A stretch of 64,000 nucleotides of DNA from Nitrospiraceae bacterium. Lineage in GTDB: Bacteria; Nitrospirota; Thermodesulfovibrionia; UBA6902. Location of the stretch: positions 1 through 64,000 of the forward strand of contig QZIL01000064.1 in the NCBI GenBank assembly GCA_003599025.1, written 5' to 3'. The notes below the pieces were generated by a model. The model did not search any database. It had not been told where the DNA came from and saw nothing but the letters and a program-made list of their open reading frames with translations. This document shows, piece after piece, positions 55,608-57,538 of this stretch. Both the position numbers and the translations under genes were made by a program. Position 1 is the first letter of the stretch, and each line of letters begins with the position of its first letter.

Positions 55608-55714
55608 GTCATTCCGGCCTGTCTGTGCCCGATGTTTGGGTATCCGGAATCTTTACTCATACGATTCCCGACGCGCGGAGCCTGTTCCGACTTGTTCGGG
55701 GCACGCGGGAATGA
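55608..55714. repeat. GTCATTCC...GGAATGAC repeat, copy 7
   Basis: gtcattccggcctgtc...gattcccgacgcgcggagcctgttccgacttgttcggggcacgcgggaatgac. Confidence 0.75.
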
Positions 55715-55736
55715 CAATCTGTGCTGCTTTACTATT

Positions 55737-55790
55737 ATAATGCCGAATCATTTTCACGGGATTGTTATCGTAAATGCCGGCAATATCTGC
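55737..55790 (+). pseudogene. remnant of IS200/REP-associated Y1 transposase
   Basis: IIMPNHFHGIVIVNAG matches the HUH-type motif (MPNHxHG) of TnpA/RAYT proteins; no flanking domain remains. Confidence 0.5.
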
Positions 55791-55913
55791 AGGGGCGTAT
55801 TGCAATACGCCCCTGCACTCCTGCGTCTTAATGTATGTTATAATCAGCCGTCATTACGGGGACACGGGCTGCAGCAATTCCATATTTTCAGCGATAAGGG
55901 GAGGATAAAGCGT

Positions 55914-56054
55914 ACCCCCTCTATCCCCCTTAACCTAAGGGGGAAGAAATGCAGTCCCCCCTCTTAGATTAAGAGGGGGAAAGGGGGAGTTATGAGATTT
56001 ATTATATAACCCATCCCAGCCTCCCCTTATATAAGGGGAGGGGAGTTATGAGAA
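55914..56054. repeat. TTAAGGGGG-type palindromic repeat array, upstream half
   Basis: ccccttaacctaaggggg, ccccctcttagattaagaggggg, cctccccttatataaggggagg. Confidence 0.8.
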
Positions 56055-56438
56055 ATGAAATACCTTCGTAATGATCCGACATTAAAGCAAAGGCGGCGGG
56101 AGTTAAGGTCTAATCAGACCGACGCGGAGAAGCTTTTATGGATGAAGATCCGCAAGAGGCAATTTTGCGGAATGAAATTTTTTCGGCAGTACAGCATAGG
56201 CCCTTACATCCTGGTTTTTTATTGCCCCGCATTTAAGGTTGCCATAGAATTAGATGGTGGACAGCATAATCAGCCGGACAATAAACAATATGACGCATTT
56301 CGTTCGGAATACCTGAAGGCTCATGGTATAGAGGTGATGCGTTTCTGGAATCATGAGGTGTTGAATAATATAGAGGGAGTATTGACCAAGATACTGGAGA
56401 AAGTAACCCATCCTTCCCCCCCTTACCTCAAGAAATAA
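56055..56438 (+). CDS. DUF559 endonuclease-like protein
   Basis: 127 aa, RRELRSNQTDAEKLLWMKIRKRQFCGMKFFRQYSIGPYILVFYCPAFKVAIELDGGQH; C-terminus (HPSPPYLKK) runs into repeat DNA. Confidence 0.88.
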   Translation: MKYLRNDPTLKQRRRELRSNQTDAEKLLWMKIRKRQFCGMKFFRQYSIGPYILVFYCPAFKVAIELDGGQHNQPDNKQYDAFRSEYLKAHGIEVMRFWNHEVLNNIEGVLTKILEKVTHPSPPYLKK

Positions 56439-56600
56439 TCCCCTCAATCCCCATTAACTTAAGGGGGAAGAAAAGCAGATAACCCCTCCTCACCTTAGCT
56501 CAAGAAATAACCCCTCCCTACCTCCCCTTACCTTAAGGGGAGGTAAAAGCACCCCCCCTCTTAAGTTAAGAGGGGGCAATGGGTGAGTTATTTACATCTT
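56410..56600. repeat. TTAAGGGGG-type palindromic repeat array, downstream half
   Basis: cccccccttacctcaag, ccccattaacttaaggggg, cctccccttaccttaaggggagg, cccccctcttaagttaagaggggg. Confidence 0.8.
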
Positions 56601-56772: not shown

Positions 56773-56970
56773 CTAAAACGGCTCTTTCTCCTTCCCTTTG
56801 GCCTTCCTCTCCGACACCACAAGCCAGCCATCCCACTCACCAGCGGGAAGAAGGTCAAGCTTTATCGATTTCTTTCCGTCTTCCTTCACAAACATGACAC
56901 CCACCCTTTCCCAGAGTGTCTTCCCCTCATTCTCAGACTTCTTCCATAATAAATCGTAAATTTTGCTCAC
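56773..56970 (-). CDS. small conserved hypothetical protein (GTG start)
   Basis: 65 aa, MSKIYDLLWKKSENEGKTLWERVGVMFVKEDGKKSIKLDLLPAGEWDGWLVVSERK; GGAGG 8 nt upstream of GTG. Confidence 0.6.
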   Translation of the reverse strand: MSKIYDLLWKKSENEGKTLWERVGVMFVKEDGKKSIKLDLLPAGEWDGWLVVSERKAKGKEKEPF

Positions 56971-57164: not shown

Positions 57165-57389
57165 TCAAAAGTCGCTATGTTTTATTTCTCTCTTTGCATT
57201 GTCCACAACACGGCGGACATCGCTTAAGCATCAGCGCCCCAGGGGGTTAGTTGCGGAGCAGTTGCAAGAGCCTTTTTTCTTCTCAGCCTGTATCCGTTCC
57301 ATAATCAGGGAATGGCCGTGATTCTGCTGAACATCTTTTATTATGTCTGCCTCAGAATACCCGAAGCAGTAACAGATCAGCTTTTTCAT
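57165..57389 (-). CDS. candidate selenoprotein: CopZ N-terminal/BFD-like (2Fe-2S) protein with in-frame TGA (Sec53)
   Basis: Missing from the ORF track. MKKLICYCFGYSEADIIKDVQQNHGHSLIMERIQAEKKKGSCNCSATNPLGR-[TGA]-CLSDVRRVVDNAKREIKHSDF*; the TGA falls in the CC of the recalled family pattern NPxGxCCLGDV; hairpin follows the TGA. Confidence 0.65.
57196..57223 (-). promoter_or_regulatory. candidate bacterial SECIS hairpin
   Basis: GCGATGTCC-[GCCGTGTTGT]-GGACAATGC: 9-position stem with one A-A mismatch, 10-nt loop starting with G; 16 nt between TGA and loop. Confidence 0.5.
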
Positions 57390-57538
57390 ACACTGAATAT
57401 TTTAGCAGAATTGGAGTCTGACCCGGGATCCAGTTTAATCAGGGGCTTCCCGTCCTCTTTTTCAAGGTATAACATATTGAGTTGAACCACTATATTTATT
57501 TCATTTTTCATCTGCAGGAAAGAATATCCAATATTCAC
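57386..57538 (-). CDS. short ORF translationally coupled to the candidate selenoprotein
   Basis: GTG start after AGGGGG; (M)NIGYSFLQMKNEINIVVQLNMLYLEKEDGKPLIKLDPGSDSNSAKIFSV*; its TGA overlaps the next ATG (ATGA). Confidence 0.45.
   Translation of the reverse strand: MNIGYSFLQMKNEINIVVQLNMLYLEKEDGKPLIKLDPGSDSNSAKIFSV

Follow-up and report, generated by a model that had tools for sequence, protein, structure and literature searches.

The window, the whole 64,000-nucleotide stretch analysed here, very probably contains a previously unannotated minus-strand gene for a 74-residue iron-sulfur-type protein with selenocysteine (Sec) at an in-frame stop codon (Table 1). Comparison with related sequences makes it highly likely that the product is a single-domain protein resembling BFD and CopZ N-terminal domains, with Sec at residue 53, and that decoding of the UGA is directed by an RNA hairpin via SelB and tRNA-Sec. 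Neighbouring genes in related genomes point to a possible role in arsenic and mercury resistance.

Table 1. Coordinates of the selenoprotein gene and its recoding elements, with the frameshifted copy from genome G002 of the same genus.
Feature	Position	Strand	Details
Selenoprotein gene, 74 aa, Sec53	57165..57389	-	MKKLICYCFGYSEADIIKDVQQNHGHSLIMERIQAEKKKGSCNCSATNPLGR-U-CLSDVRRVVDNAKREIKHSDF, stop TGA 57167-57165
In-frame UGA read as Sec, residue 53 (predicted)	57231..57233	-	Cys codon TGC 57230-57228 directly 3'
Bacterial SECIS hairpin	57200..57219	-	UGUCCGC-CGUGUU-GUGGACA; RNAfold and alignment
Frameshifted copy, G002	L045:3001-3218		Hairpin still conserved

The recoded frame and its hairpin

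The frame starts at ATG 57389 and has a single internal in-frame TGA. It agrees exactly with the original prediction, including both the internal TGA (57233-57231) and the terminal one, and the gene is indeed absent from the table-11 open reading frame list of the window (60 aa or more). Mechanical gene calling would split such genes at the UGA. No clear Shine-Dalgarno sequence was found upstream of the ATG. The motif at the Sec site is GRUC (Gly-x-Sec-Cys), and the protein has six invariant Cys/Sec residues, namely C6, C8, C42, C44, U53 and C54. In the proposed mechanism, the hairpin, which starts its loop 18 nt after the UGA at residue 53, would direct SelB and tRNA-Sec to decode this codon, while the terminal UGA, which has no hairpin, would end the same gene.

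The SECIS-like hairpin of the original prediction proved real, but its geometry had to be revised: the proposed 9-position stem, 10-nt loop and 16-nt gap gave way to a stem of 6 to 7 bp, an apical loop of 6 nt (CGUGUU, 57212-57207) and a spacing of 18 nt after the UGA. The core stem pairs 57218-57213 with 57206-57201, extended by the pair 57219:57200, and a weaker lower stem joins 57223-57221 to 57198-57196. The minimum free energy (MFE) computed with RNAfold was -13.7 kcal/mol. The bacterial SECIS model as described in PMC13188914 has a loop of 3 to 9 nt with G in the first two positions, a distance of 16 to 37 nt from the UGA and an MFE of -7.5 or lower. The window hairpin agrees with this model in loop, spacing and MFE, more closely than the structure with a 10-nt loop does, and 73 of 78 sequences conform to the model as a whole.

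In an alignment of 65 distinct sequences (A3), the six core pairs were paired in 96.9% of cases, compared to 23 to 55% in slid controls. Three of the six pairs showed two-sided changes, 13 cells in total: C-G to U-A nine times in one pair and twice in another, and G-C to A-U twice in a third. None of 500 shuffles reached the covariation score. Furthermore, CGC encoded the leading Arg of DVRRVVD in 69 of 69 sequences, as opposed to 25% of upstream Arg codons, and GTG was used for the second Val of RVV in 57 of 59, as opposed to 23% elsewhere. These hairpin and codon counts come from related sequences and are not independent events; they span two phyla. The compensatory changes and forced synonymous codons indicate that the hairpin is under constraint at the RNA level.

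The host genome, a metagenome-assembled genome (MAG) of the Thermodesulfovibrionia-type Nitrospirota (3.13 Mb, 120 contigs, 70% complete), has all four genes for which the original prediction called a search. selB (361 bits), the adjoining selC (74 bits) and selA (614 bits) lie side by side on contig C24. selD (330 bits) is on contig C17 and has one in-frame TGA (L030, G000:C17:8948-9859), suggesting that the SelD of this genome is probably itself a selenoprotein. SelB was found in 93 of 101 relatives' genomes. Taken by itself, its presence therefore says little, and we discarded it as an uninformative predictor of the selenoprotein.

Other features lie near the gene. Two small minus-strand ORFs, 57387-57537 and 56773-56970, flank it and have the motif EDGK..IKLD in common. 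The upstream one has 50 codons and runs into the start codon of the selenoprotein gene with an ATGA overlap. It was considered as a conserved partner and rejected, as inspection by eye gave no sign of it upstream in the relatives. The downstream one had no Pfam or NCBIfam match. At 56040-56600, G-rich and C-rich near-repeats (GGGGAGG.. and CCCCTTAA..) flank a plus-strand ORF (56055-56438) that by eye looks like a DUF559 endonuclease-domain protein. At 55632-55967 there is a truncated ORF resembling a transposase (MPNHFHGI).

Conservation of the UGA among relatives

A scan of GTDB genomes yielded 225 related stretches, and we examined the best 80. In 79 of these 80, which is far more than chance would give, a TGA at the homologous codon was followed by a Cys codon (TGC or TGT); 77 of them were read by pattern and two (L067 and L078) by hand. 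The Cys codon was present in all 78 tabulated sequences. Further stops and frameshifts downstream of the TGA were looked for as the original prediction had proposed, and the frame was intact in 79 of the best 80 relatives, across two phyla. The eightieth (L045), on a contig of G002 from the window's own genus, has lost 1 nt immediately 5' of the TGA and keeps the hairpin. A second copy in G406 (L145) is also frameshifted, with the TGA-Cys pair and the hairpin still recognisable. Each of these copies reflects either recent decay or an assembly error; they imply that the gene can decay, and both are exceptions. The best 80 relatives belong to Nitrospirota and Desulfobacterota, joined by a small number of MAGs labelled Myxococcales, Verrucomicrobia and Sedimenticola. 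Cultured carriers include Citrifermentans bremense R1, Malonomonas rubra DSM 5091, Desulfothermus okinawensis, Desulfoluna butyratoxydans and Desulfoferrobacter suflitae. A homologue with exactly one TGA in the same place was found in 11 of 101 genomes (the host and ten others). Within the window's genus, the gene was absent from three other genomes, and the G002 copy is the frameshifted one.

Among 396 Nitrospirota genomes, 29 of the 30 top-scoring matches had the TGA, with scores of 93 to 123 bits and short open frames; one of the 29 (G315) also had a TAG, and the thirtieth was the frameshifted G002 copy (88 bits). Matches below 75 bits were all stop-free and lay mostly in open frames of 150 to 320 aa; three of them, read in detail, had a zinc-type N-terminal domain and Cys-Cys. 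The two-domain homologues carry G-x-C-C at the Sec position, which places the TGA on the first Cys of the pair, as predicted. Sequence comparison thus indicates that in Nitrospirota the single-domain form has Sec and the longer two-domain form has Cys.

If the TGA were instead a true stop, a 52-residue protein would be made and the downstream part would be a pseudogene remnant or 3' UTR. Table 11 indeed reads TGA as stop, residues 1 to 52 alone scored slightly better than the read-through protein against Pfam Fer2_BFD (PF04324; 19.7 versus 17.9 bits), and the copies in G002 and G406 are frameshifted. However, the downstream protein and frame are kept in 79 of 80 relatives from two phyla, Cys-Cys homologues run through the site, the hairpin covaries, and the Sec machinery is complete. 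In addition, the score against NCBIfam CopZ_Nterm_CC (NF047645) rose by about 14 bits, from 41.8 for residues 1 to 52 to 55.9 for the read-through protein, which assigns the stretch downstream of the TGA to the same family. We regard a true stop as very improbable, and it was rejected on the conservation of the TGA-Cys pair and the hairpin. Reassignment of UGA, of the code 4 or 25 type, was also rejected: UGA ends the window gene and is the commonest terminator of the relatives' genes (39 of 77), so it is not globally reassigned.

Family, fold and known relatives

The assignment to a CopZ N-terminal/BFD-like family in the original prediction was supported by profile searches. The match to CopZ_Nterm_CC covered residues 2-58 and lay in the C-terminal half of the model (profile positions 85-137 of 138), below the curated cut-off of 100 bits. 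CopZ_Nterm_CU (NF045877) matched in the BFD part only, with 32 bits for the read-through protein and 20.7 for residues 1 to 52, below its cut-off of 190 bits, and the Fer2_BFD score was under the gathering cut-off of 26 bits. All 36 members of alignment A4 matched both CopZ_Nterm models. AlphaFold2 with this alignment modelled the read-through protein as helical with confidence (mean pLDDT 93.4) and placed the whole of the last helix (residues 55-72) downstream of the UGA. A Foldseek search of the PDB returned no BFD structure and no useful match, so the fold assignment rests on sequence. The best PDB match by sequence was 2HU9, a weak one (E 0.05), with NPSGRCC aligned to NPLGR-U-C. Since the protein is a single domain and lacks the zinc domain, the name CopZ should not be taken to mean a copper chaperone.

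BFD domains bind [2Fe-2S] clusters. By analogy with the family, four of the six Cys/Sec residues most likely hold such a cluster. The vicinal residues Sec53 and Cys54, where the last helix begins, would lie beside the cluster or form part of it. Cys42, next to Cys44 and absent from 2HU9, could release U53 from the cluster. We infer a cytoplasmic location for the protein.

The GxUC family is already in published lists, so the window gene adds a member to it and is not a new family. Following Zhang and Gladyshev 2008 (PMC2398784), both PMC13188914 and PMC9312934 list a (2Fe-2S)-binding selenoprotein termed CopZ family form 1 (cd10141, motif GxUC, example WP_245779778.1); the form 1 name does not appear in the main text of the 2008 paper. 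By motif and description, this selenoprotein has the same domain family and the same Gly-x-Sec-Cys as the window protein. The form 1 listings themselves (PMC13188914, PMC9312934) carry no genomic context, and a search of the open-licence literature found no link between the single-domain GxUC form and ars operons.

Several other known proteins are comparable. In the Csac_0668 family (CopZ_Nterm_CU, form 2), Sec likewise occupies the CC motif of a CopZ-N-terminal-like 2Fe-2S protein. However, Sec is the second residue of its pair (CU, by name) and the first in the window protein (UC), which matches only the last third of the 161-position model, and that weakly. CopZ_Nterm_CC and the two-domain zinc-BFD proteins of Nitrospirota align in their BFD half and have Cys at the Sec position; unlike the window protein, they carry an N-terminal zinc-type domain. 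Those examined in detail have Cys-Cys, and none of the ones found has an in-frame stop. In NF045683, the NCBIfam entry for a MerT/CopZ fusion-like heavy metal transport selenoprotein, CopZ-like domains and Sec are already linked with the transport of heavy metals, and the model matches a MerT encoded beside one relative. The window protein, in contrast, is free-standing and does not match that model. Finally, the N-terminal domain of Archaeoglobus fulgidus CopZ (2HU9) aligns weakly with residues 3-59, but this protein has CC at the site plus further domains, whereas the window protein is a single domain with UC.

Gene neighbourhoods and proposed role

We compared the neighbourhoods of 80 loci, about 5.5 kb each, with the families of representatives confirmed by Pfam and NCBIfam. 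The recurrent neighbours were ArsP-type permease (18 loci), ArsR (15), ACR3 (13), TauE/SafE (12) and ArsC (8), followed by a thioredoxin-like cluster (7), chromate transporter (6), MerT (4), MerA (3) and MerR (3). They were mostly on the same strand as the selenoprotein gene, and ArsP, ACR3, ArsR and ArsC nearly always so. ACR3 lay within about 3 kb at its 13 loci, compared to 0.16 expected by chance with about one ACR3 per genome, although the loci are not phylogenetically independent. An ArsP or ACR3 efflux gene was found within 3 kb at 22 of the 80 loci, and in 12 of these 22 the selenoprotein starts about 10 to 40 nt after the end of the efflux gene. MerT or MerA genes occurred at 6 of the 80. 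At L065:1806-3473, from a Myxococcales MAG, the selenoprotein frame, once read through, is fused to a full MerA (569 bits).

At L026:1501-2100, a two-domain Cys relative is followed in frame by a membrane stretch resembling MerT; by eye, this 318-aa frame is a CopZ-MerT fusion. At L146 (G077:C20:20000-30500), genes for ArsP, ArsR, ACR3, the selenoprotein and selB lie within about 7 kb (contig positions 22283-29290), together with cation diffusion facilitator-like and sigma-factor-like genes.

No ars or mer gene was found near the window locus or near its closest kin of the same GTDB family, and the ACR3 gene of the host genome is on another contig. The gene stands alone in the window, so its role has to be drawn from the neighbourhoods of its kin. 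These lead us to favour, with some caution, a part in detoxifying the soft metal(loid)s As(III) and Hg(II). In this scheme, the metal(loid) would be bound or reduced at the selenolate-thiol pair and then handed to an efflux pump (ACR3 or the ArsP-type permease) or to MerT/MerA. More tentatively, the single-domain selenoprotein, widespread in Nitrospirota and Desulfobacterota, might be a metallochaperone or reductase dedicated to As(III)/Hg(II) and serving the ACR3, ArsP and Mer systems, in which Sec would act as a [2Fe-2S] ligand or form, with the neighbouring Cys, a selenol-thiol site next to the cluster.

Two other functions for a selenoprotein were weighed against detoxification. One is a copper chaperone like Archaeoglobus CopZ, with no part in arsenic or mercury handling. 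The nearest named models (CopZ_Nterm_CC and CopZ_Nterm_CU) and the only relevant PDB sequence match, weak as it is, would agree with this. However, the HMA domain of full CopZ is missing from the single-domain protein, the DKTGT motif of P-type ATPases occurred in none of 527 neighbour ORFs, HMA-type GMTC motifs were confined to two mer-type loci, and the recurrent neighbours are ars and mer genes, which makes a copper chaperone improbable. The other is a small electron carrier or thiol/selenol reductase of BFD- or thioredoxin-like type, serving several pathways, for example by reducing ArsC, rather than carrying a metal(loid). The known cluster binding of the family is consistent with such a function, as are thioredoxin-like genes directly upstream at six loci, DsbD/CcdA-like genes downstream at several, and TauE/SafE and chromate-transporter neighbours at other loci. 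The MerT/MerA neighbourhoods and the MerA fusion, however, need no extra carrier for arsenate reduction, and we consider this function rather unlikely, though a serious candidate.

For the GxUC CopZ-like selenoproteins, the neighbourhoods suggest a function that can be tested, in resistance to arsenic and mercury, and the longer two-domain Cys proteins offer a comparison with the single-domain Sec proteins. If Sec joins the iron-sulfur cluster or a metal site, this would be an unusual, non-catalytic use of selenium.
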